Shown one piece after another: positions 401 through 60,539 of a stretch of 64,000 nucleotides of DNA. Every line of letters starts with the position of its first letter. Position 1 is the stretch's first letter. Both the position numbers and the translations under genes were made by a program. The stretch spans positions 10,666,001 to 10,730,000 of the forward strand of contig NC_088316.1 in assembly GCF_910592395.1 (NCBI RefSeq), given 5' to 3'. This stretch comes from Lineus longissimus. Taxonomy: Eukaryota > Nemertea > Pilidiophora > Heteronemertea > Lineidae. The notes below the pieces were generated by a model. It searched no databases. It saw nothing but the letters and a program-made list of their open reading frames with translations, and was not told the origin of the DNA.

Positions 401-1420
401 TCGGTACGGGTAGTTGTAAAACAAGAAACACAGAAACGAAACAGAAACACAGAAACACTGAAACGAAACGCAGAAACCAGTCTTGTGGTGAATTCTGGTC
501 AGCAGACTCCATCTTGTTGCCATGGTTGTGGCCGCGAACGCGGGTGTAACTAAAACTGGTATTCAGTCGGAATGGAAGGAGGAATGCTCATTTCCCAATA
601 CCCCTTTTAGCCTCATCAACGTGTGCGCAGATTGGCAGCATCCGGCCTTGATCGTGCCAATACACTACATGTATGTACTACACGGCGTAAATAGAAAATA
701 GTCCTTCGAATAGCGAGTCCTGTTCTTTTGTACATTCCATGCCCTGTGCACGACACTAGGTTGAACTTCCCTACTGCAACCTCATTAACATAAACATATA
801 TTTAAAGGGACTATTTAAAGGCAGCAGCTGGGCAGGCAAGATTGAGTTACTCCAAGTCCAAGTCTAGTGCCCGCCCCCCCCCCCCCCCCCACTTTACTCT
901 ATTCTAGTCGCCAAAATTGGTCTCTCACGTCTCACATAACGTCGAAATGATTCACCCATGTTCTGGTACCGTACCTTGCATTTAGTGCTGCATCAGACGG
1001 GATTTGTAGGATGATCCTGGTACTTCATGTAAATTGAACACTACAAGGCAAGATGTTGCACTGCACCTTCATTTAAAATAACATGCTGTAGGAATCGAAT
1101 CGAACCTACCAAGGTACTACACCACCACCTCAAAAGACTTCACCCATATCGTGCCGCCCCCTCCCTCCCCCCCCCCCCCCAAGTTGCTCCATGTATCCCC
1201 TCAACAACTCTATTGCATTCCGGCTGACCGCAACCCACCAACCTCAGATTTTACTTTTAAACGACAATAACAACGGATTGGGCAAGGAAAGTATCGGCGT
1301 GCCGCTTGATTCCAACTTTTATGAAAACCCGTTTGATTTTCGTTTCTGCGTTTCGTTTCTGCGTTTCTGTGTTTCTGTTTCGTTTCTGTGTTTCTTGTTT
1401 TACAACTACCCGATCGGTAC
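401..1420. repeat. Inverted-repeat element with CAGAAAC-rich arms
   Basis: The left arm (about 401-478) and right arm (about 1331-1420) are reverse complements. Both hold the stretch GGGTAGTTGTAAAACAAGAA followed by many copies of a CAGAAAC/CGAAAC word. The interior of about 850 bp has two poly-C runs (874-890 and 1157-1180) and no credible ORF. The layout fits a fold-back or non-autonomous DNA transposon. Target duplications are not clear. Short frames across the right arm only translate the simple repeat. Confidence 0.6.
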
Positions 1421-3002
1421 ACTACAGTGTACTGTGTGCTGGCCGACACACACTACAGAGAAACAAACACTGCCGACAGCAGATATGATGATAATCCATG
1501 ACAAGCCTATCGGCGTCTGATTCACAATGTGGTTTGTGAGGAGTGTCATAGTCGTCAACAGTGTAGCTTACGTATTTCGAAGACCAGTGGAATTGGCGGC
1601 GTCAAATTATTAGTGAAATTTATAATTTACAATACAAATTACAAATCGTTTATTGAAACCGTGTAAAAAGTTACATTTTACATAAGATGAAAGTACAATG
1701 ACCATAAGTGCAGTGTGGACACATTCGGTAAGAAGAAAGAGTGGGAGAAGATTGGTGATCATAAATAGGTATGTAGTATTCAGCAGTGTTGACCTACAAG
1801 GTTCTAATATATATAGTAATCGGCTATACAGTCTTTCTTATCTGGTAAGCAAAAGGAAGTAAAATTGTCGTGGGGGGCTGGCGATTGTATTGGCTATGGC
1901 AGTTTACGGCACACGATTTGATGGAGAGTTTCATGCATTCATGTAAGTGTAGGACTGCAGCGTTATGCCAGCTATGAAAAGTTCGAAATGTGGCAACTAT
2001 TTGAAACAATCGGCATCTATCACAGGTAGTCTATGATGTTTGTGAATTTATGATCATAACAATTTATTGCAATTAATGACTAAAATCCTTGTGGATGATG
2101 TTTAGGATGACCCATTTTCAACTAGCAGAGAATGAAGCAGCCAGCAAAAGAATGAATACCCTAATGGCTGCAGATGACTGCCTGAGGACAACGTCACAAC
2201 CTGGGTTTGAGACCAAATGCAGGGACACTTATCTTCTATATTCATCAACACTAGCTTAAACCCATGCTCTGCACGGTGGTTGAGGGAGTTTATATAAAAT
2301 AAAGTGTCAGTTTCATTTGTGGTGAAGTTGTTAGGAGCGTTTTTTGCGTACCAGTATCTTGCCGGGAATGTGATGGTGTGCGGAAAATGTCATAGATTGA
2401 TCTACAGTATTTCTTTGAAGACAACGTTCCGTGTTATGGTTTTGTCCTATCGTAGTCCTTGGTTGCTGTTGTTGTCGACTTTGATGAACGTCCTAGCACC
2501 GGAGAACGTCCTAGCACCGGAGAAGGCGACATAGAGTTGGCCATGTGAGAAGACCGGGGCGGGCAGGTATATGCCTAGTCTATTGAATGTTTTTCATTGG
2601 GCCTTGCTGATTGTAATTGAGTTGGCAACGCGCACTGGGAACTGTATTCGTTGTAGGGTGAACGGCAAGTTGGCGTCGGACGGCGCAAGTCTAATCCTGG
2701 GTATGAGTGCCCTAACTGCTGAAAACAGCTCTGAGGCTGCCTGGCAGGTCAAGTAACTTACATATTTTCCTCATAGACAGCAGCACTTGCTGATGATGGA
2801 GGTGGCCCATTCATAGAGCAAAAATCACGAAAAACAGCATATTCCGATGAAAATTTGGTTTCGGAATATAGCGGATCGTCTTCAGGACGTCCAAATACCC
2901 CTAAATAACCCTCAACATGGCCAATTCATTCAGTGGTTTCAGAGGAGATAGAGCAAATTACTCTTCAGACGTCTCCAGTAATAATATATAGATGCCTGAC
3001 AG
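1421..3002. other. Non-coding sequence
   Basis: No gene is supported. The only structure noticed is a short direct duplication of the word AACGTCCTAGCACCGGAG at about 2485-2522. Confidence 0.5.
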
Positions 3003-3800
3003 TTGGTGCCATCTAGCGCAAAGCATGATGAACTAAATAACTGGTGTGACATTGTTGTGGATTTGGTGGTGTGCAGCTGGAGGAATGGACAATGTCACAA
3101 CCAGGGTTCCTACATTATATACAGTGGAACCTCCGTTAGTAGACACCTCTCTATTAAAGACAACCTTTCCAATAAGGACACTAGTTTTGGTCCCAAATTG
3201 GTTGTTTCCATTCAATTTTGACTTCTCTAATCAGTCTTTGGGTGTTCCGAATGCTTGACACATTTCGAACATGTTTTGGTTGGAAACAACCCTACAGTCT
3301 TACACTTATGGCTGAATGAATGACAGTGCATTTTCGTGTAAGCTCGGTGACGAAATGCTGCGACACTATTCGTCACCAACATGCTTGATGGGTGGTGCCA
3401 TCTGCACAAAGGACGATGAATTAAATAACTGATGTGACATTGGGTGATATGAATAAAGACTAGCAAATGCTTTTACTTCAATTTTGTACAGAAAGGCCTA
3501 GTGTAAATGTACATGGAGTTTTAGATAAAATCATTTGCTAGTCTTTATTCATATCACCCATTGTCGCTGCATTTGCAGGTGTCCACATCGAGGAGTAGAT
3601 GATGTCACTACATGTACCAGGGTTTGTACTTTCATATACAGTGGACCTACTTTTTGTGGACACCTTTCTATTGAGGACAACCTCTTTAATAAGGACAGTA
3701 GTTTTTGGTTCCAAATTGGTTGTTTCCATTCAACTCGACTTCTCAGATTAGGACACCTCTCTGTTAAAACAGCACTTTTCAGTCCCTGGGGCATTTCTGG
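3003..3800. repeat. Duplicated CAGTGGACCTCC-type repeats and a hairpin
   Basis: Two related segments start with TACAGTGGAACCTCC-like sequence (about 3120-3240 and 3637-3760). Both continue with CCAAATTGGTTGTTTCCATT. The sequence before the first (about 3003-3055) is repeated at about 3385-3441. Between them, 3438-3469 and 3532-3563 are near-perfect inverted arms (30 of 32 bases) around a 62 bp loop. The CAGT...ACTG style of ends resembles pogo/Tc1-type miniature elements, but the class is inference. No coding sequence is supported. Confidence 0.55.
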
Positions 3801-4428
3801 AAATTTCATGCTATAGAGCAATTAGTTCAGCTAAGTGACAAGAACAGTACTATAAGACGGTTTTAAAAAGTTAAAAATTATTTATTTAAATGACATATGA
3901 ATGGTTCAGCAGTAATTGGCAGTGTGCATTATGTAATGAAATATGATTTACATAATATAACATTTTTGTGACAAATAGTACAGATGATGGATAAATCGAT
4001 ACAGTGGATAGCTGTTAGAATATGCAATACATGCAATAGCATTTGTTTTTATTGAGATTTTGCGAGAACCAAGTGGTATTTTGACAAGATAATTGAAAGC
4101 CAATAACACTACAAGAACATGACTTCAATACATTGACATTGTAGTACCGGTACTTGGTATACTAAAAATATTCAAAGATGGGTATCTTGAGTTAAATGTC
4201 AAAGTACAAGATGTATGAATGAAGGAGGCACTCGGGTAAGAAATGGTGTCGCTAATGAAAGATTAGAATTAAGACATATCTCTGTATTTCATGTGGTGTA
4301 CTGACAAATTGTGCAGTTTGTTAGCAATTTTGTACATAGTTGGTGTGTCATGTTTATTCATACATCTTGCTATATAAAAGCGAGTGAGAGAGGCATTGTG
4401 ACATTAGAGTGTTGTATATATCTATAGA
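3801..4428. other. AT-rich non-coding sequence
   Basis: Nothing coding or repetitive is recognised. Confidence 0.5.
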
Positions 4429-4625
4429 ATATGTGACCCGTCACAGCAAAACCAGGTACATGTCGCACAGAACATGAGCCTAAATGACACCAGGAGATAA
4501 TGGAAGAAATTGATGTGCTCATATTTTACAAAAGGCAGACAATAGATAAATGAACAAACAGTCCGTCTCAACCTGCCAAGCTCAGAGCGACATGTGCCTG
4601 GTTTTGCTGTAACGGGTCACATATA
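4429..4625. mobile_element. Miniature inverted-repeat element, 197 bp
   Basis: The ends are inverted copies: ATATGTGACCCGTCACAGCA at the left, and its reverse complement with one change at the right. The match runs on through AAACCAGG and ATGTCGC, giving arms of about 38 bp. The interior is non-coding. This is the form of a MITE. It sits in AT-rich sequence where a TA duplication cannot be resolved. Confidence 0.75.
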
Positions 4626-5065
4626 CAAAGTTTACATAAAACAAGATTTGTATGTTTATTTAGGAGGAGTACAAAAGTTGTATATAAAATGCCGACTTCA
4701 TAATGATTTATAGGACACAAAATTTGACATGACAGCATTTTATAAAATATGAATAATCTATAATGAGAATAGTTTTGTAGCACCAATGATTTGAAAAAAC
4801 TGAATTTATTTATTGCATGAATAGAAACACAAAAAACAGGATGATTACATGACTGTCACATGCGTGAAATATATTGTCATGGATGGGCATTGGGAACAAA
4901 AAGAATTGCTGTTATCAGCTGCATTGGTAGCGATTGCTTTAGCTGATTTTCAGAAACTGACAGGAATGAGAATGTTGATATAGTGTTAAAAAAATATTTT
5001 TATAACATACATTGCATTCAAATAACACTAAGAAGTAGACGAGTACTAATTTCGCACACTTGAAA
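4626..5065. other. Non-coding sequence
   Basis: Nothing recognised beyond AT-rich sequence. Confidence 0.5.
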
Positions 5066-7813: not shown

Positions 7814-7834
7814 TAGCTATAGGATGCTACTCAC

Positions 7835-8450
7835 CTTCATGATTGCAAATGCCCTGTACATTTATTGAGTAGAAATGCTTCCTGCAGAAAAAGGCAGCCT
7901 CATACAGCATTGGGTGAGCCATGGCCTCAGCAACTTCTCTTGGTGGATAGGGGACTTGGATTTTGATGTGGGTCCCATCCACACATCCAATGACGTTTGG
8001 AAATCTGTATTTCTCCATAAATGTTTGCCTGATGTGTCTTCGCTCCCCTGCATCAGGCCACCTGATGAACCTGTCTTTTTGTTCCACCAGGGATGCAGCC
8101 ACCGTATGGATGATTCTCGATACAGTCCCCTTATCTATGCCAAAAATGTCACCAACATCGTCCAGAAAAGATCCGGATGCAAAGAATTTGAGGGCGACCA
8201 ACACCTGTGTTTCCACATTCAGGCTGTGATTTCTGTCCGTGTCCCTCATCAAATCATCCCTCACCAAGTCACAGATGAAATGTATGCCTTCAGAATTGAA
8301 TCTGTACTTTTTCTGCAATTTTATCTCACTAAATTCCTCCAACGGCAATGGTCTGTGGCGGAAATTACGCTGAAATCTGCGATTTTGGGCTGGAAAGTCC
8401 AGGAGCAGCATCCTGTGCGCAGCCATCTTGGATGATAGAGCAGACGACAA
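7835..8450 (-). CDS. PIF/Harbinger (HARBI1-like) transposase, first exon only
   Basis: This is the N-terminal exon of a DDE nuclease of the Harbinger family (DDE_Tnp_4). Residues 76-125 form the usual helix-turn-helix (VLVALKFFASGSF, then DKGTVSRIIH). GCVDGTHIKI at about 155-164 carries the first catalytic Asp (D158). The exon ends at CNHEG, where the minus strand reads AAG|GTGAGT, a strong splice donor at 7834. Family proteins are about 350-400 residues, so roughly half is missing, including the second Asp and the Glu. No matching downstream exon lies at lower coordinates. The element is therefore partial and probably dead. Start chosen at the first ATG; an upstream exon is not needed. Confidence 0.85.
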
Positions 8451-8648
8451 ATGCTAGCGGTGGCTTAGCAAGGAGATATCGGTGCCCCCTGGGCCCGCTA
8501 AATATGACCAGATTTAGCAGGGAGATAATGACCCGCTAAGCAAAAAAAAAATTTGAACAACCCAATTAGCGACTCGCTAAAGTTAGCAGGGGTTTATCCT
8601 GTACCTAGCCAGTCGCTAAGAGTTAGCGGGGCTTTGAACAACCCAGCC
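8451..8648 (-). mobile_element. Harbinger element terminal region (5' side)
   Basis: This non-coding stretch holds repeated TTAGC/GCTAA words and two copies of GGGTTGTTCAAA-like sequence on the minus strand (about 8552-8565 and 8633-8645). It lies between the HARBI1-like exon and the point, near 8645-8650, where the BEL gag frame stops matching its family. The last eight or so residues of that gag ORF are read from this sequence. I read it as the terminus of the inserted Harbinger element. The partner terminus was not found. Confidence 0.55.
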
Positions 8649-9733
8649 CTTCTCTTTAGCAACCTTCCATCTTTCGGGTACCGAAAGTTTGTACCACCTC
8701 CTGCAGTTGCTGACAGAATGTGTATCCTCACACAAAGGACAACTTGAGGTTGAGGAAGATTTCTTCTGTTGAACTGATATTTGTTTCTGAGTTCCAGTAT
8801 CAGTTTTCGCTGCACCAGTTTGCTGTGTAGTGCTGTTCGATGTATCCGGTGCTGAGCTTGAATGTACTTGGCTTTTCTGAAATTTCTTGAAGTCCCTAGG
8901 GTTCTTTTTGGACGTCGACGTCGATGATCCTCCTTGCTTCTTTATAGGCCCCTTCAACTCGGCCATTTCCAGTCGTATCGCTATCTGGCGACTTAGCCAC
9001 CTGGTGAATGTACTGAGTCCATCAACACTCGATGAAAGTAGTGTGTCTTGGTACTGTAAAAGCATCCGATCAGGTATCTTTTGGAGCACTATTGTGTACA
9101 GCGCGGAGGTGCCTATAAGTTCATGATCTTGGTTAGCCTCCTGCAGATTTGCAACTAAGTCGCACAGTTTATTTGAAAAGTCTGCGAGTTCTGTCAGATC
9201 TTCCTCTTTCAGGGGTGAAGTAGCTAAGACTAGGTCAATGTATTGCTGTAGCAAGCGTTTTTTGCCGCCATAACGTATTTCCAGTTTTTCAAGGGCCATT
9301 TGGTACTGAATGTCTGTGTAGCCCAATCTCTGAACCAATTCTAGGGGGGTTCCTGTTAAACAGTTTTTGAGCATTATCACCTTGTATTTAACTGGTACAT
9401 CAGTCTGATCGACGAATATATCGAATTGTTCTCGCCAGTCCTGATAACGTCCCCTTTCACCTCCAAATTTTGGTAGAGACGGTTTCGCCATTCCCTGAAA
9501 AAATATCCTAAGATCCGTAGACCCTTCTTTTTTTGGCGATGTATCAACAGGTGTGAAAGCCTCAGGTTTGATCATTGACAATCCTACAGAAGGTGGCATT
9601 TTCCACTGGACAGGTTTTCTTTTTATCTCCGGCGGCGGTTTTCTATTTTCTATTTTCTGAGCCAATCTTTCCGGTGGTAATGTTGTGGTACAGGAGTAAC
9701 CAAGTGGCTCCAAATCGACTTTACTTTCATTAA
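8616..9733 (-). CDS. BEL/Pao gag, C-terminal half (interrupted)
   Basis: This is the downstream part of a BEL/Pao retrotransposon gag-like protein. It contains the DUF1759-type core (LPKFGGERGRYQDWREQF, then KVIMLKNCLTG and LEIRYGGKKRL). A Ser/Thr/Gln-rich linker follows, then the BEL-type zinc motif CPLCEDTHSVSNC and a basic SVPERW motif. The open frame runs from an ATG at 9758, but 9734-9758 belongs to the end of an inserted TTAA element, so the true gag sequence resumes at 9733. Codons from about 8648 downward are read from the Harbinger end and the frame stops at 8616. No protease, reverse transcriptase or integrase follows. The upstream half is at 13904-14805. Confidence 0.85.
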
Positions 9734-10013
9734 AGGTATAACTGAGTGGCACCAACATGTTGGTTTAGAAGATCTAAGTATGCATTAAGACAACAATTAA
9801 TTTAAAAAAAATCGATTTCAAGCAATGTGGTTCGTTTTCTTTCAACTTTTATTCCCAAACCACGCCCATCCAATAAAAACGAAAATCTTCGGGAATCTTC
9901 GGCGATGACGACAACAAAGGAAGACCGAGCGCTCTCAGGAATATCATGGCGGTCGGTGCAGTGCATTTGCATGTGAATAGTTTCTTGAGATATCATGCGA
10001 AATATCAATTGAT

Positions 10014-10229
10014 ATGGTGAATAGATGTGTTTTGTTCGGCTGTAGTGACACGGCCGATGCATCGAGTGCTCTTTCGAAGCATTCATTCCCGAAAAAAACA
10101 GCAATTCGACGTCAGTGGGTGAAGTTTGTACAAACAACGAGAGTGGACTTCGTGGATCCGAAACCGACCAACACTTCGGCCGTAGTGTGTTCAAAACACT
10201 TCACTGACGATTGTTTTGAAGTACCATGA
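10014..10229 (+). CDS. THAP zinc-finger domain exon of the transposase
   Basis: This 71-residue frame is almost entirely a THAP (C2CH) DNA-binding domain. It has C5 and C10 in RCVLFGC, the FP pair at 25-26, the conserved W35, and C59/H62 in VVCSKHF. It ends at CFEVP, where the AVPTIF-like end of the domain is expected. THAP domains act as the site-specific DNA-binding module of P, Kolobok and related transposases. The ATG at 10014 starts the domain, and a stop follows at once. Either the exon splices out near GAA|GTACC, which is a weak donor, or the gene is broken there. The matching transposase C-terminus lies 1.45 kb downstream on the same strand. Confidence 0.85.
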   Translation: MVNRCVLFGCSDTADASSALSKHSFPKKTAIRRQWVKFVQTTRVDFVDPKPTNTSAVVCSKHFTDDCFEVP

Positions 10230-10248
10230 TTATTGTTTGCTCAGGAGC

Positions 10249-10357
10249 AACTGCAGAATACCCGGGACACTCTGTGCTAAATGATAGGAATGTGTACATA
10301 ATGTACAGAGGGACAGAGTGTACATAATCATACTACTGTCCCGGCTATTCTGTAGTT
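10249..10357. repeat. Short inverted repeat, about 109 bp
   Basis: AACTGCAGAATACCCGGGAC at the left is mirrored by a near-complement of GTCCCGGCTATTCTGTAGTT at the right. The centre contains two copies of ATGTGTACATAAT-like sequence. This could be a small MITE or a solo hairpin. It lies between the THAP exon and the 1 kb element. Confidence 0.6.
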
Positions 10358-10370
10358 ATCGAAATGTTAT

Positions 10371-11375
10371 GGTAGTTGATAAAGTATGGAATTAGTGAAA
10401 CCTTGGAAACACTGATAAACCTTGGAATATTCAATGTAAACCATGGAATCACTGTGCAAATAGCGCGGGAAATCGGGTGCGTTCGTTCCACGATTTATAC
10501 CCTCCCAACTGACAGTCTCGTCCCAGCTGACTTTATTGATAGCAATTTGCCAGTTAGTTCAGAAGCCAACATTTTTAATGTAGAGGATGACGTCATCAAT
10601 TGGCAATGCGCTGTGGTCGTTAAAATATTTTATTTCTCTTCAATGGAAGCAAAAATTAGTTTTTATGATTGTTTTGTATTCCATAGACGATAAAGTATTA
10701 TGCTCGGTACTAGATGCACGAGATCATAGGACAAACACACACGTGAATAAAAAAACCGCTTAGAACTGGTGACGTCACAAAGATCTCTGCATCCCTCGAT
10801 GCGTACTGGAAGATGTAAGAAATCGCTCACGGCGAAGGAAATTTTCATCCGCAAACTTCGGTAATAAACATACATGACTAGGCTTCTTTTATTCATCGTT
10901 TGTTATAAAATATCAGTCAATCATAGACAATTAGGCCTAGACATAGTCGTCAACCTTATCCATGCATAATGCATGACAGGCCCCCAATTTTCTCTGTATC
11001 ACCCTGTATGAACAGACCGATCCGTAGTTCAAATAGGCCCCGCGTGGTGGTGGCGTATTTATAAGCGGAGCGCTATTGGTCCATATTATGGGTGTGTGGT
11101 GGGCGTGTCTTCCCATATTTGGGAGATCAGTACTGTACACTGGAGGCGAGGTACAACTGGGTTGTTCTAAAATATAGACTATATCGGATATGCGACAGAT
11201 TTCTAAATTACCATAAAATTCCGATCTGATCATGTAAGAATAAGCTCCAAATGTTGATTCGTAACCACGTTAGGTTCGAATGGCATTATTTCATGTTTTT
11301 ATGCATTTTAAGGAGTGTTTCCAAGGTTTATCAGTGTTTCCAAGGTTTCACTAATTCCATACTTTATCACCTACC
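10371..11375 (+). mobile_element. 1.0 kb non-autonomous inverted-repeat element, copy 1
   Basis: The left end (GGTAGTTGATAAAG...) and right end (...CTTTATCACCTACC) are inverted repeats of about 58 bp. Each contains several CCTTGGAA words. The same element occurs in the opposite orientation at 38038-39149, and interior blocks match over most of its length. An example is the ATGACGTCATC block at about 10587-10600. No ORF with family resemblance lies inside. It sits between the THAP exon and the transposase C-terminal exons of the host transposon. Target duplications could not be fixed. Confidence 0.85.
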
Positions 11376-11682
11376 ATTTATTGTGTTGAATACTCAGGTG
11401 ATGTGGGCATGTGCATGGTTATAGCCTACATATAAGCCAGGCCTGACATTGACATATTTAGCATATGCATAGGGCCTTGCACGCAGGCAGGCATGGTCTA
11501 TCACTCAGTCTTGTGTGATGTGTCGTATGACTTCATTCAATGGTTATGACATTTCCACTTGGCACTCAACTATTGTACCCATCAATGTAGTTTTTTAAAG
11601 ACTACATAAGCATAAGCATACATAATTATGCCAAACTGACCGCTCACATTCACATGTTAATATGTTTCTACTTGTAGGCTAG

Positions 11683-11824
11683 TTAGCTGGACTCCACTTC
11701 AATGAGAACAGTGGCAGGGACCAAGCCAAACTCGAGAATGGGGCAGAACAATTCAACATTTCATTCCCCAAATTCGAGAAGGGATGCTTTTCAGTGAAAC
11801 GTGTTCTGACCAAGTGCACATTCA
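11683..11824 (+). CDS. Transposase C-terminal exon (Kolobok/THAP type)
   Basis: This spliced exon runs from an acceptor at GGCTAG (11677-11682) to a good donor GTAAGT at 11825. It encodes LAGLHFNENSGRDQAKLEN and then FNISFPKFEKGCFSV. The pattern LAALDHNxNxxRxQA...FPK is what I know from the region after the catalytic core in THAP-bearing, TTAA-type transposases of invertebrates. Splicing to the next exon keeps frame and gives continuous sequence across the junction. The core DDE exon(s) that should precede it are absent from the window. Confidence 0.7.
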
Positions 11825-12110
11825 GTAAGTCTGTATTATTTTGTTCTAAAAAAATAGGCCAGGTGAAGGAATCTACGATGTTCCCCTGCGGATGAGTACC
11901 ATTTCCAAAGTAATACTACAGGGTGGTCCATGAAAAGTGTCCCTAGCCAGTCTTTCAAGTGAATGGGGAAACGCTTCAAAACATCCTGTAATTAGAATGT
12001 GCTGGCAGTTTTCAAATGAACACATGTAATTTGAAATATTGACCAGCCCCTTTACCTAGGTCACCGCTGACTAATTGCTGTTCATCACCACAACAACTGT
12101 CTTTTTTCAG

Positions 12111-12343
12111 ACTATGTGACTGAACTTCAGAAAGAGGTGTGCAGAATCATCCGAGCTGGAGAAATCTGTCAGAATGAAGAACCCCACCCCCACTTTCCAG
12201 TGCCTTCGAACATCCGGATAAGCAGGAAGCCATCAACAAATACCAGAGTGGAAAACGCTACGTGGAGCATGTGGGGAAGTGACTTGTGTTGGACTTCTAG
12301 ATTCCAGTGTAAACTGTATGTGGTGGGAGCCAATTCGGTTTGA
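12111..12343 (+). CDS. Transposase last exon, frameshifted
   Basis: The exon starts after a clean acceptor (CTTTTTTCAG at 12101-12110) and continues the previous exon in phase with YVTELQKEVCRIIRAGE. The open frame runs to a stop at 12343. From about 12205 a neighbouring frame reads more plausibly as family sequence (EHPDKQEAINKYQSGKRYVE) and stops near 12283. A one-base shift near 12200 is therefore likely. Together with the THAP exon this marks the ends of one transposase gene whose middle has been lost. Confidence 0.6.
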
Positions 12344-12570
12344 CGACCATCAAGTTGAAGCTATCACAAATTGCATCCTTGGCCTTGGGCCTAGTCATCA
12401 TTGATTTTGTACGGGTCCTGTTTAACAAACATAACATCACCAGTATTGGCATTTTATATGAGCAATGTATTTAAAATTTGAAACTTTAAAATTTTGTACA
12501 GATGAACAAATACATGCAACTGAACACAATATTTCTTGTTCGTCAATGTCATTGTACTTGTAGTCAGTGT

Positions 12571-12968
12571 CTAGTCAGAGTCCCCTTGATGAAAACCTCT
12601 GAATTCAGCATCCTCCTCGAGTCCGGGGGGGCATGAACTGTGCCCTTATCCGACTCACCGCACATGATCGCAAAACCACACGGACATCCCGCCCCAGAAA
12701 CCCCCAACACCACCTCGCTAACTGTCTGTAGCTTATGTGCCGCATCCTCTTCTCATACGGCCCATCATATGCTGCCCGACCATGCTGCTGTCTGTATTGA
12801 AGCCAGGCCACCTGCAGGACATGATGGTCCAGGCAAACTGGGTGTTGGATGATACATGTCGTCCCCTCGGCCTCTATCTCTGCCATCTTGTCTTGGACCC
12901 TTTGGATCTCGTGGCAGCACGTACATTCATCCTCTTTTTGCTGGATCTGACAGTTGTCGCAGTGACAC
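12571..12968 (-). CDS. P2X7 'ballast'-type domain protein, second exon
   Basis: This exon follows an acceptor (CATTTCAG on the minus strand, exon starting at 12968). It encodes a cysteine cluster (CHCDNC and CTCCHEI) and a domain very like the cytoplasmic ballast of vertebrate P2X7: HHVLQVAWLQYRQQHG, then RHISYRQLARWCWGFLG, then a Cys-containing basic segment. The human ballast binds zinc and guanine nucleotides, and free-standing homologues occur in invertebrates. The open frame ends at 12605. Across a C run at about 12627-12633 a different frame gives EDAEFRGFHQGDSD and a stop at 12571, which aligns with the P2X7 tail (…YSGF…). One indel in the C run is therefore likely. The gene lies inside the TTAA transposon, convergent to the transposase. 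Confidence 0.8.
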
Positions 12969-13383
12969 CTGAAATGATAGTAATATAGGCCTGTATTTAT
13001 CATATCAGTTACAGTGACATTGTAGTCATGAGATTAATAAGCAGTGTCATGGTAGTAGTACTTGGTCGACTTTATTCACGAAGTAAGTCCACGCAACGTT
13101 AATAAGAGTACACAAATCTTTTGTGAGTTGGGATTGAACAAAAGGACACCCGCAAACGGACAATAGCTCATGCACTGCGGAAAGTCATGAGGCCTTTGTG
13201 AATATGGTATACGGTACCGGTAGGCTATAGATAGTTGGCGATGGTACTGGTAGGTAGGTAGGCTCTTCATTTATAGTGTTCAGTGGGTGACAGTGCTTGA
13301 AAATAATGGCCTCCGTCTCCAACATGCTGGGCACGGGTGTCTAGATAAAACAATAAAACTGTAATATTCCATACCAGTCAAGA

Positions 13384-13674
13384 TTATCTCGCCTCGTTGG
13401 CCGCTGTTCTTCTTCTGCTACTACAGTACAGCTGCCTGCGCCTGTACATGCTCATGCTGATGCTGTACTTCATCTTGTTCAGGACAGGTACGGGTTCAAA
13501 CATGTAGGGTTCTATCGGTCCAGGAACTGGCTCTGGATCCCCAACATCGTCGAATAACTCATCAGCATCACCACTATCGTAATCGGCAGCAAGAAATTGG
13601 CTGAGAGCAGACGATGAAGTACTGCAATCGCTACAAATTGATGAAGAATCGCTTTCGCTGTATGCATTCGCCAT
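13384..13674 (-). CDS. P2X7 'ballast'-type domain protein, first exon
   Basis: The exon begins with a Ser/Asp-rich stretch (MANAYSESDSSSICSDCSTS), then acidic sequence and the motif IEPYMFEP. I associate YMFEP with the N-terminal exon of invertebrate ballast-domain proteins. The frame remains open to 13384, but the real exon probably ends earlier at one of several GTAC donors. The intron to the ballast exon at 12968 is about 0.4-0.5 kb. The ATG at 13674 sits just downstream of a CRE/ETS-like promoter patch. Confidence 0.65.
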   Translation of the reverse strand: MANAYSESDSSSICSDCSTSSSALSQFLAADYDSGDADELFDDVGDPEPVPGPIEPYMFEPVPVLNKMKYSISMSMYRRRQLYCSSRRRTAANEAR

Positions 13675-13711
13675 GTTTTGTTTGGTTCTGATATTCCTGA
13701 GATGCCTGAGA

Positions 13712-13726
13712 TGACGTCACTTCCTG
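13712..13726 (-). promoter_or_regulatory. Candidate promoter sites: CRE plus ETS
   Basis: A perfect CRE palindrome TGACGTCA (13712-13719) is followed by CTTCCTG (13720-13726), an ETS core. They lie 38-52 bp upstream of the ballast-gene ATG on its strand and near the end of the TTAA element. The position suits a TATA-less promoter. Function is inferred from motif and place only. Confidence 0.4.
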
Positions 13727-13903
13727 TCTGGCCGACGAGTGATTTTCGTTTTCGCAGGTGGCGGGATTTACAATTTACAAAAGCTGATTATGCTGAACCT
13801 GCTAAATCAATCATGTTGGGATATCAGTGTATACCTTATTTAGTTAGTAAACTTGCCATTGTATAAAAAGAATGGTTTAGAGAAATCAAAAGCCGTTATA
13901 CCT

Positions 13904-14805
13904 TTAAGTAATTCCTCCTGTGTCCATAACTCAGCTTCCAATCTGGCTCTTTGAGCTTCGTCCTTTTGTTTTTGAAGTAACAACTGTTCTTTAGCATCTC
14001 GCAACCTACGTTCCCTCTCAAATCGCTGTTTTTCCTGAAATACTCGTAGCGATGCGACTTTATATTTGATCTGGGCCTCCTTCGATTTAATGGAACCTTC
14101 GCTGAGTGTTTCATCCTTGCCAGCTCCCTGCAAATGATCTTCGAAGTTTTCCTGGTCAAATGCTTCTTTCATGACACCTTCCTGGTTTCCCACCGATGTG
14201 TGGGAGACTGAATTTTGCTGAGTGTCAATATTCTCCTCAATTCGAACATGGGGAGTTGAAGACTTGACTTGTGTTTCCTGAACACTACTAGGACGTTGAC
14301 TCGCCGAACTCCTTTCACTGGCAACTGAGGGAGCTTCTCCGCTTCTGATTTCCAGTGTCTCTGCAATCAGATCCTGATAATCTTCAACTACTTGCTTTGT
14401 CCTGTTGAGGAAACTTGCGCATTCATATGCATCAAGAGGCAGATCCTCTTCACCGGCTTCAAGAATTCTGTTGGTGACTTCTTTGAGGTCCTTGAATGAT
14501 TTTTCTAGTCTCTGATCTAACCTTTTTAAGGTAGATTTACTTCCATTTTTCGTGATGAGGTCTTGAACTTTTTTACAATAAGCCGTAACATCCTGGCTAA
14601 TGAAGTCCCGTTCTGTTCTTAAACGTTCTAATTTTGAGGAACGACTGGAGGTTTGTGATTCGGCGTCATCACTGAATTTTTGTAAAACAAAGTCTCTAAG
14701 ATGGCCGGGTAGCTTAATTGGACGATTGGACCGCCTAGGCATATCCATTTCTTTGTTTAACTTATGCATCCTGTCTTTTCTCGAGAATTCAATCATGAGT
14801 TTCAA
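13904..14805 (-). CDS. BEL/Pao gag, N-terminal half (interrupted)
   Basis: This is the N-terminal part of a BEL/Pao gag-like polyprotein. It starts near RRSNRPIKLPGHLRDFVL, the family's typical opening motif (RRS.R...P.HLRDF). Helical sequence, a Ser/Glu-rich linker and a long charged coiled coil rich in Arg, Glu, Leu and Gln (about residues 235-300) follow. The frame stays open to 13840, but the last 20 or so residues are read from the inserted TTAA transposon. The reading frame resumes at 9733. A protein of about 670 residues is expected for the two parts. It is the third layer outward from the 1 kb element nested in this locus. Confidence 0.85.
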
Positions 14806-15022
14806 AATTGGTCAGGCGAACTTGACTATTCCTAAATTTTCCAATAGAGTTCGGGCTAGTTTACAATCCAACCACGAACTAGACTATTCCTATATTTACC
14901 GATGTCGTGAAACCAACATGAAACTATGACTAATTTTAAAAAGACCAGCGATATATCATGAAATCAAACTTGAACTGTATGGTCATGGATGACGTCACTA
15001 ATTTGTCCAACTTTCATTTACT

Positions 15023-15646
15023 TTAATGACGTAACTCCGAGAACCTACGAAGTCCAATCAAAATGGCTTTTCTAATACTGAAGTGATAAAGCTCCAGTCC
15101 TCTGGGAGATGTGATATGAATATCATCTCGAGATAATCTATCATGTAAGCTGACTAAAATTGTCCTATCGTGTTTGTAGGTATAAATATGGGAGTTCCTC
15201 CTAGCTTCCCGCTGAATGATTTGATTATACCTTAATCTATGAATATCAAATTCCTCTCTGGGGCATGCCCTTGTACGTCTGCGGCTAACTATTTGGCAGA
15301 GTACAATACAACGAACAGATGTGTGGCTTAAAAGATAACCGCTAAAGTTGATGACTGTTCTTGCAAGATCATCTGGTAAAATGTTATTGGTCAAATAATT
15401 TGTTCCCAATTCTAACACTAGGATCTGGGGTTGAAGTCGATTTACGTGTCCTTCAATATAATTCAGTCCTGTACGGTCTGCCTGCAAGCCACCTTGCCCA
15501 TGTACATATACAGAATGTCCTTGAATCCCAAGACAATTTTCATAACTAGTCGATGACGATGTCCTATTATATGACTGGTTTTGGAGATTCAGGTAATTTC
15601 TGTAGCGATTAATAAATGAATGTCCACATACTAATAATATGTTCAT
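15023..15646 (-). CDS. SGNH/GDSL-type hydrolase-like ORF upstream of BEL gag
   Basis: This 207-residue frame has the four SGNH blocks. Block I is LLVCGHSF with Ser10. Block II glycines lie in VHGQGG (about 48-53). Block III is LELGTN with Asn83. Block V is DDIH with Asp174 and His177. SGNH folds are usually esterases or acyl hydrolases, and transposon-linked versions occur in some retroelements. The set of catalytic residues looks complete. The ORF is on the same strand as the BEL gag, 217 bp upstream of its ATG and about 50-65 bp downstream of an LTR/primer-binding-like site. It may be the first ORF of the same element or an unrelated gene. Substrate unknown. Confidence 0.7.
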   Translation of the reverse strand: MNILLVCGHSFINRYRNYLNLQNQSYNRTSSSTSYENCLGIQGHSVYVHGQGGLQADRTGLNYIEGHVNRLQPQILVLELGTNYLTNNILPDDLARTVINFSGYLLSHTSVRCIVLCQIVSRRRTRACPREEFDIHRLRYNQIIQREARRNSHIYTYKHDRTILVSLHDRLSRDDIHITSPRGLELYHFSIRKAILIGLRRFSELRH

Positions 15647-15699
15647 TTCTCGAAATCTCCGTCGATTATGCTATTTCCTATCAAATCCGGTCGGAGAGA

Positions 15700-20298: not shown

Positions 20299-20302
20299 TT
20301 AA

Positions 20303-20746
20303 GGGTTGACCATTGCCAAAAAATTGCTAATGGCCGCTTGTTTTCTTCCATTTCATATTTCAGCCACAGTATTTCTCCTTCAAAACTTGGAGTAAACATA
20401 ATGAAACTACGGGGAGTGCGCTCTTTCTGTAGTGTAGACTGAACTCGATACCTCTTTATGCCCTTTTCTCTTGTTTTCAAGGTGTGTTAATTGCTGCAGA
20501 AGTTTGAGTACATGTTGAAGGATTTTGTCAGAAATTGAAATTCTATGAGCAATGAGAACTTCTTCAAATTATGGTGAATGTACATTTCAAGGGTTCGAGT
20601 CCATTCTGTAATAAGCAAATAACGCACTTCCCGTAGTCTCATTATGTGTACTCCAAGTTTTTAAGGAGAAATACTCTTGCTAAAATTTAAAGTGGTAGAA
20701 AGCAAGCAGCACTTTGCAATTCTTTACATTTACCCATGGTCAACCC
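20303..20746. mobile_element. TTAA-flanked MITE, 444 bp
   Basis: TTAA at 20299-20302 and 20747-20750 flank a sequence that begins GGGTTGACCATTG and ends CCATGGTCAACCC. The terminal arms are about 120 bp. The left arm includes AACTTGGAGTAAACATAATG and ACGGGGAGTGCGC, mirrored at about 20620-20665. TTAA duplication points to the piggyBac or Kolobok group. Its ends do not match the 4.17 kb element at 9734. Confidence 0.8.
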
Positions 20747-21003
20747 TTAAAAGCTGTTTGAGACTTGCTTTGGACGAGTAATTTCACGTCAGATTATCGA
20801 CTAGACTCGATGTCGCACCACTAGATTCATTGTATTGGCTCGATATCTTAATTTCACTTTTACATGATCGTGTGTTCGTCATGATAGGACGGAGATATAT
20901 GTCTTTGGAGATGTTCGACAATTGACTTGCTCATTCAACATATTAACGGTGTTCCGTTTGAACTTAACACGAAGAGTCACGATAAAAACGACAACACTCC
21001 GTT

Positions 21004-38037: not shown

Positions 38038-39149
38038 GGTAGTTGATAAAGCTTGGAATCAGTGAAACCTTGGAACCAGTGATAAACCTTGGAATCAGTC
38101 CTAAAAATGCATAAAAACATGAAATAATGCCATTGGAACCTAAAAATGCATAAAAACATGAAATAATGCCATTGGAACCTAAGGTGGTTACGAATCAATA
38201 TTTGGAGATTATTTTTACATGATCAGATCGGAATTTGACGGTAGTTTAGAAATCAGTCGCATATCCGATTCAACAATCTATATTTTAGAACAACCCAGTC
38301 ATACCTCGCCTCCAGTGTACATTACTGATCTCCCAAATATGGGCATGCACGTCACGACACGCCCACCACACACCCATAATATGGACCAATCAGCGCTCCG
38401 CTTACTACGCCACCACACGAGGCCTATTTGAGATACGGAGCGGTGTGATCATACAGGGTGATACAGAGAAGATTGACTACATCATGCAGTACCGGCTGGC
38501 ACTTATCCGTACATCATCTTAAACATGACAAGAACCGTAGATGATGGTTTATTACCGAAGGTTTTAGCCGGGTTTGGAGATGAAAAATGTGAACAAATTC
38601 CTTCGCTGTGAGCGATTTCGTACATCTTCATGTACACATCGAGGGATGAAGATATCTTTTCGTGATGTCACCAGTTCTAAGTGGACACATTTTTTAGTGA
38701 TTCCCGTGTGCATGTTTGTCCTATCTACCAAGCTTAATCAGAGCATTATATATACAAAATGATTCTTCTAATAAAAACGTTTTATTTTAGTATATGGAAT
38801 ACAAAACAATCACAAAACCTTTCTTTTGCTTTCATTGAAAAGAAATCATTAGATATTTGCAATTGCAGCCCGTCATGAATATAAGTTTATTTTTTAACGA
38901 CAACGCATTTCAAATGCATTCCATGATGACGTCATCCTCCACAAAAAGGTGGTTGCTGGAACTACTGGCAAATTGCTATCAATAAAGTCAGCTGGGACGA
39001 GATTGGCAGTTGGAAGGGTATAAATCGTGGAAGGAACGCAACCGATTTCACGCGGTACTTGCACAGTGATTCCACGGTTTAGTTCTGACTATTCAAAGGT
39101 TTATCACTGGTTCCAAGGTTTCACTGATTTTTAAGCTTTATCAACTTCC
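38038..39149 (-). mobile_element. 1.1 kb non-autonomous inverted-repeat element, copy 2
   Basis: Same family as 10371-11375 in inverse orientation, with ends GGTAGTTGATAAAGCTTGGA and ...AAGCTTTATCAACTTCC. It lies inside a Gypsy pol relic. A 39 bp subterminal unit (ATGCATAAAAACATGAAATA and following) is tandemly doubled at about 38099-38178, but single in copy 1. Confidence 0.85.
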
Positions 39150-39300
39150 ACTGCGTACGCATCGAAAAGCCTCTCTCCCGCCGAGAGCAGGTATGCGAAT
39201 ATTGAACGTGAACTTTTAGCGTGCATTTTTGGGGCTGAACGCTTTCATACATACGTGTATGGAAAATCATTTCTAATCGAATCCGATCACCGACCTTTAG
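39150..39300 (+). pseudogene. Gypsy/Ty3 RNase H fragment, part 1
   Basis: Open frame with TAYASKSLSPAESRYANIER, then ELLACIFGAERFHTYVYG and ESDHRPL. These are diagnostic Gypsy RNase H motifs (AYASK.L...E..Y..IE.ELLA..F...RFH.Y..G and .DH.PL). The frame is cut at TTAG (39297-39300) by an inserted 434 bp element and resumes at 39739. Confidence 0.85.
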
Positions 39301-57285: not shown

Positions 57286-58534
57286 ATCGCCGCAGTCTAA
57301 TGCTTGTAGCCAAGCATCAACTGATTCAAGAAGAATTGTGACACAACTCTTTTTATCCATGAAGCCATGTTGGTCTTCGGACATGAGGTTGTTCATTTTG
57401 AGGTGGTCCCAAACTGAGTCTTTTACAATCTGTTCAAGAAGTTTGCAGCAGATGCTTGTCAGACTTATAGGTCTGTAGTTAGACGGGAGATGTTTATCAC
57501 CTTTTTTGTGGATTGGGATAACAGTAGCCATTTTCCAATCGTCGGGCACTGTTGACGAGGACAGGCATTTATTGAATAGAATAGTGAGGGGGGGTGGTCA
57601 ATTCTTCCTGGAGTTCATGCAGCATGTGAGGGTGTAGTCCATCAGGGCCTTGACTTTTGTTAGGTTTTAGCTGGCTTAGTTTCTTTTTAACTGTATCCTC
57701 TGAGATGTTGGGTTTGGCGATAGGTACATTTATCTTTTTTTCCGGTGGGTTTGGCATATTTGTTTTGGATTCGTCAGTGAAGACGCTAGCAAAATAGTCG
57801 TTCAATAAGTTAGCGCGGTCTATATCTGAGGTGAAAGTTTTACCGGTTTCATCTCGTAGATCAGGGATACCTTGTGGTGATTTAGTTTTACTTTTGTAGT
57901 ATGCCCAGAAGGCCCTTGGATTGCATTTGGACTCTTTTGCGATTTTTTGCTCGAACTGTCTTGTTGCTCTTCGTACTTCTTTTTTGGCTAAGTTTCTCGC
58001 CGCAATGTATTCCTGGTAGTCGTGGCCCTCACGGGTTTCAAGGTATCGTCTGTAGGATTTATGTTTAGCACGGACCTTGCCAAATGCTTTGTTATTCATC
58101 CATAGGGGTTTCACCTTCTTTGAGTTACCAATGAAAACCCGGTTCGTAGGGACGTATTTGTTCCTGAGGGCCAGTAAAGTTGATTTGATTTTTTCCCATG
58201 CATCGTTTGCACCCATGTGCAAGATCTCCTCACTTAAAGTACCATTTCTTAGTTCGTCTTTAATGGCTTTATAGTCCGCTTTCTGGTATTGATACTTAAT
58301 TTTGCCAATAGGCTCAAACTTGTGGTGCGGGCAGACGACAGTGAAAGTCAGTACATCGTGGTCGCTTTTTCCCAGGCCTGACCTATGGGAAACTGAGCCG
58401 TCGATAACTTGGTCTGAGGAGATGACTAGGTCATCAAGGGTGGACTTTTGACCATCACGGTGCCTGGTGGGAGCGGACGTGTGTTGAGAGGCCAGGGAGT
58501 CCTTGAACGTGTCTAGGAATATAGATGCCGCGTG
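57286..58534 (-). pseudogene. CR1-like LINE ORF2 fragment, inverted arm of a palindrome
   Basis: From 58534 downward this encodes endonuclease tail (STLDDLVISSDQ, SGLGKSDHDVLTF), linker (LWMNNKAFGKVRAKHKSYRR, FWAYYKSKTKSPQG) and RT start (KPNKSQGPDGLHPHML, VIPIHKKGDKHLPSNYRPIS, DQHGFMDKKSC). It breaks off after ALDCGD at 57286, before the catalytic palm. One extra C in a C run (about 57587-57593) shifts frame against the other arm. It is nearly identical to 58560-59422 in reverse, except for 384 bp present only here. Confidence 0.85.
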
Positions 58535-58559
58535 GTTTTTACCTACCTTAGCGTCTGAG
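58535..58559. other. 25 bp centre of the LINE palindrome
   Basis: Non-repeated spacer between two head-to-head LINE arms. The flanking CACGCGGCATCTATATTCCT and its complement are exact. Confidence 0.85.
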
Positions 58560-60539
58560 CACGCGGCATCTATATTCCTAGACACGTTCAAGGACTCCCT
58601 GGCCTCTCAACACACGTCCGCTCCCACCAGGCACCGTGATGGTCAAAAGTCCACCCTTGATGACCTAGTCATCTCCTCAGACCAAGTTATCGACGGCTCA
58701 GTTTCCCATAGGTCAGGCCTGGGAAAAAGCGACCACGATGTACTGACTTTCACTGTCGTCTGCCCGCACCACAAGTTTGAGCCTATTGGCAAAATTAAGT
58801 ATCAATACCAGAAAGCGGACTATAAAGCCATTAAAGACGAACTAAGAAATGGTACTTTAAGTGAGGAGATCTTGCACATGGGTGCAAACGATGCATGGGA
58901 AAAAATCAAATCAACTTTACTGGCCCTCAGGAACAAATACGTCCCTACGAACCGGGTTTTCATTGGTAACTCAAAGAAGGTGAAACCCCTATGGATGAAT
59001 AACAAAGCATTTGGCAAGGTTAAAAAGAAACTAAGCCAGCTAAAACCTAACAAAAGTCAAGGCCCTGATGGACTACACCCTCACATGCTGCATGAACTCC
59101 AGGAAGAATTGACCACCCCCCTCACTATTCTATTCAATAAATGCCTGTCCTCGTCAACAGTGCCCGACGATTGGAAAATGGCTACTGTTATCCCAATCCA
59201 CAAAAAAGGTGATAAACATCTCCCTTCTAACTACAGACCTATAAGTCTGACAAGCATCTGCTGCAAACTTCTTGAACAGATTGTAAAAGACTCAGTTTGG
59301 GACCACCTCAAAATGAACAACCTCATGTTCGAAGACCAACATGGCTTCATGGATAAAAAGAGTTGTGTCACAATTCTTCTTGAATCAGTTGATGCTTGGC
59401 TACAAGCATTAGACTGCGGCGACAGCATAGACGTCATCTTTCTCGACTACTCTAAAGCTTTTGACTCCGTCCCGCATGCAAGACTAATTTCTAAACTAAA
59501 GGGTTATGGCATTACCGACCCTTGGCTAAGCTGGATAGAAAACTTCTTGGCTGACCGAACACAAAATGTCCAAATAAATAACAGCCTATCCCATACTAGA
59601 CACGTAAAGAGCGGTGTCCCACAGGGTAGTGTCCTGGGACCTCTACTTTTTATAATTTTTGTTGATGACCTTACTGACTCAACCACATCGCCTACCAAAC
59701 TCTTTGCGGATGACGCAAAAACCTTCGAAACGATCAACTCCACCCAGGACTGCCTACAACTCCAGCAAGGCCTCTCCAACATAGACGATTGGTCGGTAAT
59801 ATGGCAAATGGGTTTCAACCTTGCCAAGTGCAAGCACATGAGATTTGGCAGATTCAAAATTGACCATCATTATACGCTAAGAAATGAAGCAGGGGGGCTC
59901 CATCTGATTGAGCGGGTGTACACTGAAAAGGACCTCTGTGTAACCCTCGATCCCAAACTTTCTTTTGATACCCATATCAATACCATCATAAAGCGAGCGA
60001 ATAGTATTCTCGCAACAATTAAACGCACTTTCACAGAGCTTAACAAAAGCACCTTCCGGCTCCTCTTCAAGTCGCTCGTGAGACCGCACTTAGAATATGC
60101 TCAGGAGGTCTGGTCCCCCTACTGGAAAGGGGAACAGGATGCTATAGAGAAGGTCCAACGACGGGCCACCAAACTCGTAAAAGGTATCAAAAACCAATCA
60201 TATGAGACCAGATTAAGGGCCCTCAATCTCCCTACTCTAAAACACCGGAGACTAAGGGGAGATCTCATTAGTACGTACAAGATCACCCATGGGTCCACCC
60301 TCACGAACCTGCAAATCCCCTACTCCGACAATAAAAACTTGCGGGGACATCCCCTCAAACTAGCCCCTATCAGAGCTCAACACCAACGAAGATGCCACTT
60401 CTTTTCCAACAGGATAGTAGTCCCTTGGAATGACCTACCAGAGGAAATTGTAATGTCGCCTAGTGTTAACACCTTCAAATCCAGACTTGACAAGTTTTGG
60501 GTCTCAAAGGGGAAAAACATTTATGCCTATAGCTGGTAA
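58560..60539 (+). CDS. CR1-like LINE ORF2 (RT to C-terminus), internal deletion
   Basis: An open frame of 678 codons from 58503; the first 19 codons read across the palindrome centre. It carries the SDH end of the endonuclease, then RT blocks NYRPISLTS, FLDYSKAFDSVPH, SGVPQGSVLGPLLF and the catalytic LFADDAKTF. The CR1/L2-type C-terminus is LFKSLVRPHLEYAQEVWSPY, EKVQRRATKLVKG and LPTLKHRRLRGDLISTYKI. Compared with the inverted arm, 384 bp (128 codons) between FGKV and KKKLSQ are missing in frame, with GT at both break points. The endonuclease N-terminus is absent, so the copy is 5' truncated and not active by itself. Confidence 0.9.
   Translation, partial: HAASIFLDTFKDSLASQHTSAPTRHRDGQKSTLDDLVISSDQVIDGSVSHRSGLGKSDHDVLTFTVVCPHHKFEPIGKIKYQYQKADYKAIKDELRNGTLSEEILHMGANDAWEKIKSTLLALRNKYVPTNRVFIGNSKKVKPLWMNNKAFGKVKKKLSQLKPNKSQGPDGLHPHMLHELQEELTTPLTILFNKCLSSSTVPDDWKMATVIPIHKKGDKHLPSNYRPISLTSICCKLLEQIVKDSVWDHLKMNNLMFEDQHGFMDKKSCVTILLESVDAWLQALDCGDSIDVIFLDYSKAFDSVPHARLISKLKGYGITDPWLSWIENFLADRTQNVQINNSLSHTRHVKSGVPQGSVLGPLLFIIFVDDLTDSTTSPTKLFADDAKTFETINSTQDCLQLQQGLSNIDDWSVIWQMGFNLAKCKHMRFGRFKIDHHYTLRNEAGGLHLIERVYTEKDLCVTLDPKLSFDTHINTIIKRANSILATIKRTFTELNKSTFRLLFKSLVRPHLEYAQEVWSPYWKGEQDAIEKVQRRATKLVKGIKNQSYETRLRALNLPTLKHRRLRGDLISTYKITHGSTLTNLQIPYSDNKNLRGHPLKLAPIRAQHQRRCHFFSNRIVVPWNDLPEEIVMSPSVNTFKSRLDKFWVSKGKNIYAYSW

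Follow-up and report, generated by a model that had tools for sequence, protein, structure and literature searches.

How does a gene for a P2X7-type ballast domain come to lie inside a DNA transposon, and is it a stray passenger there or a regular part of the element? The question is raised by a 64,000-nucleotide stretch of the genome of the nemertean Lineus longissimus (contig NC_088316.1, positions 10,666,001 to 10,730,000; hereafter the window), in which a TTAA-flanked element interrupts a BEL gag gene and carries transposase exons on one strand and a ballast-type gene on the other. The ballast has been described as an ancient animal domain, in an account that names no transposons and in whose text 'transpos' is absent (Rump et al. 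2020, PMC7016195). The Kol0 group of Kolobok transposons encodes, in addition to the transposase, a protein termed KolX that is similar to residues 476-595 of P2X7, and P2X7 has been proposed to originate by fusion with KolX (Kojima & Bao 2022, PMC9587614). The window element is almost certainly a Kolobok DNA transposon of this Kol0 type that has suffered an internal deletion and is non-autonomous. A preliminary description of the same DNA had allowed that the pairing of transposon and ballast might be undescribed; the link was published in 2022 (PMC9587614). The element is real, and of a kind already known.

The element spans positions 9730-13907 (4178 bp), with copies of the TTAA target site at 9730-9733 and 13904-13907. 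Its left inverted end, AGGTATAAC (9734-9742, plus strand), and its right inverted end, GTTATACCT (13895-13903, minus strand), are complementary at 13 of 13 bases when TTAA is included (9730-9742 against 13895-13907), and the termini read AG...CT, that is, 5'-RR and YY-3'. Among the 17,208 pairs of TTAA sites lying 0.2-12 kb apart in the window, a perfect inverted match of at least 9 bp adjoining TTAA occurs five times; the element ends are one such pair, and three of the remaining four sit in one palindrome. Further inward, a subterminal inverted repeat with perfect blocks of 12 and 14 bp joins 9876-9946 on the plus strand to 13689-13752 on the minus strand, the latter directly upstream of the KolX start. 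This inverted match scores 33.5, whereas shuffles average 16.2 (sd 2.9); none of 1000 shuffles and none of 859 random window pairs attains its score. Chance inverted ends were rejected on the shuffle, random-pair and TTAA-pair tests.

The insertion site can be rebuilt. The host BEL gag runs on the minus strand in two halves, a downstream half at 8616-9729 (PF03564, DUF1759, 52.8 bits) and an upstream half at 13908-14811, whose open frame continues, over one TTAA, into the downstream half. Joining the flanks with a single TTAA gives 286 bp that form one open gag frame throughout, which also supports the two target-site copies. The borders and the BEL gag insertion proposed in the preliminary description are therefore borne out to the base. 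Adjoining the gag, a GDSL/SGNH-like open frame occupies 15026-15670 (25.1 bits, under the cutoff of 32.9). Elsewhere in the window, a TTAA-flanked stretch of 452 bp with 11-bp perfect inverted ends, GGGTTGACCAT (20299-20750), is probably a small element from a different TTAA-targeting family, and a long inverted repeat in which TTAA sites are mirrored (58234-58860) overlaps two large opposite-strand open frames, one of them with RVT_1. The open frame at 7830-8453, with a weak HTH_Tnp_4 match under the cutoff, we take to be a possible Harbinger-type transposase.

What remains of the transposase lies on the plus strand. The first exon (10014-10229) encodes a THAP zinc finger covering positions 1-61 of the 87 in the profile (PF05485, 44.3 bits, cutoff 23.9). 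Two C-terminal exons in good splice contexts follow, one at 11683-11824 (LAGLHFNEN..., donor GTAAGT) and the last at 12111-12343 (NYVTELQKEV...), which, judged by splice context and frames, presumably continues the same protein. Neither exon finds a match in Pfam, and nothing relevant to the HFNEN motif turned up in the literature; a query with the transposase end found one stretch encoding a relative among viral contigs (0 loci given), and the genome contigs searched in the same series gave no relative. These exons are confirmed as transposase because the same exon trails the DDE core in two longer copies of the family, L059 and L061. The window copy has itself lost this core in a deletion of about 3.2 kb, with its junction at 11573/11574 and the missing DNA present in L059 and L061, and is consequently non-autonomous. 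The THAP and C-terminal exons first read from the window are upheld, by the THAP score and by the place of the C-terminal exon after the DDE core in these two copies.

The copy has also received insertions of its own. A nested element of about 1 kb with 59-bp inverted ends (10369-11377) is missing in L048 and L056 and represents a later insertion, giving the order BEL, then Kolobok, then nested insert. Next to it, a short stretch whose inverted ends were spotted by eye (10244-10368) is probably a small insertion; it is absent from L059 and L061 and present in L048, L056 and L060. A diverged second copy of the 1-kb element, which is assigned to no known family, lies at 38038-39150 of the window. 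L060 contains retroelement-like open frames of 420 and 702 aa inside its Kolobok copy (971-4843), and the two blocks that flank this insert are those that flank the nested element in the window copy.

The ballast (KolX) gene runs on the minus strand, convergent with the transposase exons. Its exon 2 (12608-12968) encodes a P2RX7_C domain with seven zinc-type cysteines and scores 28.8 bits against PF20478 (cutoff 23.5), or 27.0 bits over a longer stretch; exon 1 (13375-13674, MANAYSESDSS...EPYMFEP) has a counterpart in L060 and no match in Pfam. The profile searches advised in the preliminary description thus placed both the THAP and the ballast exon over cutoff. Its two-exon, zinc-binding ballast gene on the opposite strand stands as well, with the correction that the gene is frame-disturbed: the start frame of exon 1 hits a stop ahead of the likely donor, and the C-terminal end is in a frame unlike that of L060 but common to L048. 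In an alignment of nine ballast exons from this genome, C3, C5, C8, C19, C20, C40, C47 and C104 (window-exon numbering) are invariant, and all seven conserved cysteines of KolX are present in these exons. A profile of the nine exons retrieves P2X7 477-583 from the PDB at E 2.2e-8, where the single window exon reaches P2X7 at E 0.028 only. A single-sequence structure prediction of the exon (mean pLDDT 40.7) was left unused, and the exon had no relative among viral contigs.

Is this arrangement peculiar to the window? A DNA search of the genome (391 Mb, 30 contigs) with 11680-13907 returned 40 pieces, the best eleven of which, window included, are 93-100% identical over at least 2.0 kb. The best twelve places, again with the window (L047) among them, were read with 1.5-kb flanks. 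Eight of the twelve keep the right end together with TTAA, unaltered in seven and with one changed base in the eighth, and these eight have eight different flanks; in the other four the right end is truncated or missing. Both ends with TTAA on each side are seen in six copies that were read from end to end and share the same left end, namely the window copy (4178 bp), L048 (3254 bp), L056 (3271 bp), L060 (7064 bp), L059 (6369 bp) and L061 (6403 bp), while L058 shows the left end only. The DDE core is retained in L059 and L061, which align with the transposase, of Kolobok type, in L041 and L039 over the whole span between the first D and the last E. L061 reads GDARMDSMGH, TTDGH, DVWH and LEGYH, followed by the window's own LAGLHFNENSGRDQA exon, and both copies have a DDE signature with DxxH between the second D and the E (GDARMDS, TDGH, DVWH, LEGYH). 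In-frame stops in these alignments fall in unaligned, intron-like stretches, apart from one further stop within the aligned part of L059. Copies with the same ends and both genes, which the preliminary description had proposed to look for, are therefore at hand in L059 and L061.

These features bear directly on the class of the element. Termini of 5'-RR and YY-3' are a criterion for Kolobok (PMC9587614), and THAP and H2CH are Kolobok features (PMC6004289). The assignment to Kol0 rests on a comparison of sequence features with the published description: ends, TTAA target, THAP finger, DDE with DxxH and a second protein of ballast fold are common to Kol0 Kolobok and the window family (PMC9587614, PMC6004289), whereas the window copy departs from that plan in its missing DDE core, its nested 1-kb element and its disturbed KolX. 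The TTAA target would equally suit an element of piggyBac type, a group in which a few families also have a KolX-like protein (PMC9587614). That identification is nevertheless exceedingly improbable, given the THAP domain, the RR..YY ends and the DxxH between the second D and the E, and given that the KolX-like proteins of piggyBac lack most of the seven cysteines (PMC9587614), all of which are present here.

Two genes on opposite strands might also reflect a ballast gene that landed by chance in a THAP transposon, through secondary insertion or capture by a single copy, and the window by itself does not separate that reading from a regular pairing. A P2RX7_C search of the genome found at least 96 ballast places (187 candidates, 150 scored), a list outside which the window's own place lies. 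The best 30 of these were read with 1.5-kb flanks at a transposase threshold of E 1e-4, and 25 of the 30, which include near-identical copies and are not 30 independent cases, have a transposase match within 1.5 kb; in 24 it is convergent and lies 3' of the ballast. The match at L016 is not convergent, and within 1.5 kb of the remaining five (L012, L014, L020, L026 and L033) there is none. The same queries gave no match at E 0.01 in the 59.8 kb of the window outside the element, or at three THAP loci (L001, L002, L006). As a lead only, 19 THAP places chosen by eye from the 150 listed were set against the at least 96 ballast places; ten pairs lay within 12 kb of each other, all ten convergent.

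Larger stretches were fetched around eight ballast genes (L039-L046). Two have a clear pair of TTAA ends with both genes between them, L039 (30-6005, 16/16 bp) and L045 (2123-8201, 15/16 bp); one end of the L039 family is found in L040, L043 and L044, and L041, L042 and L046 gave no clear TTAA end pair. The same pair of genes hence recurs within the window family, in the full copies L059 and L061, and again in L039 and L045, which belong to other families and have different ends; a convergent transposase also accompanies 24 of the 30 best ballast loci. A chance insertion is left with only the slightest probability, and the 24 of 30 further imply that the ballast gene belongs regularly to elements of this sort. 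It had at first been read as cargo; it is instead KolX, the second gene by which the Kol0 lineage is defined. Neither of the two refuting outcomes named in the preliminary description came about: ballast genes do lie between such ends elsewhere, and the gene is retained in full copies whose ends are the same.

The full copies suggest how the family would move. The transposase encoded by a full copy would use its THAP finger and the subterminal repeats to bind the ends, and would most likely cut the element out and insert it at TTAA, a cut-and-paste reaction acting on shared ends. Deleted copies, the window copy included, would travel in trans as passengers. Indeed, the deletion junction is joined in six of the twelve places (window, L048, L051, L052, L056 and L057), not joined in five (L049, L050, L053, L055 and L058), and gave no match in L054; the occurrence of the deleted form in several copies suggests such movement in trans. 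KolX exon 2 is still matched in all six deleted copies, and this raises the idea that they are more than debris, either supplying KolX or depending on it as passengers. We consider this improbable, as exon 2 has stops in L048 and L056, the match in L057 is partial, the window frame is disturbed, and one deletion, with the deleted form then spreading in trans, accounts for the retention of KolX.

What KolX does for the element can be approached through its likeness to P2X7. Like the C-terminal cytoplasmic ballast of P2X7, KolX of the window family has the seven zinc cysteines, an RH..Y motif and SC....IR..F; unlike P2X7, the window ballast is a stand-alone transposon gene in which no P2X channel part is seen. 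The nanor and nanor-like (ZCD) proteins are likewise stand-alone and of ballast type; in the account of Rump et al. 2020 (PMC7016195) they are host genes, a few in each species, in contrast to the at least 96 places here, most of those examined being beside a transposase. Our best guess is that KolX acts as a zinc-bound accessory protein, a co-factor of transposition. It may possibly also bind a guanine nucleotide as the P2X7 ballast does, because R546-H547, which lie in the P2X7 pocket (Rump et al. 2020, PMC7016195), align with R78-H79 of KolX, invariant in all nine rows. The histidine of this pair has been reported as not found in invertebrates (PMC7016195); RH is present in all nine ballast exons of this genome.

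A bolder proposal joins these guesses. In this genome the ballast domain would chiefly be a multicopy transposon protein; KolX would be a working transposition factor with a conserved, nucleotide-pocket-like RH..Y motif, kept even where the transposase core is gone, and the GDP-binding ballast of P2X7 would be a domesticated co-factor. We regard this as rather unlikely as a whole. If true, the original biochemistry of the P2X7 ballast could be assayed in living elements.

Taken together, these observations provide independent, genome-scale support for the brief claim of 2022 that places the P2X7 ballast domain in a lineage of transposons (PMC9587614). They also alter the numbers: at least 96 ballast places occur in this one genome, against an earlier picture of fewer than ten ballast genes per species (PMC7016195). 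With full copies standing alongside deleted ones in the same genome, what the ballast fold originally did becomes testable.
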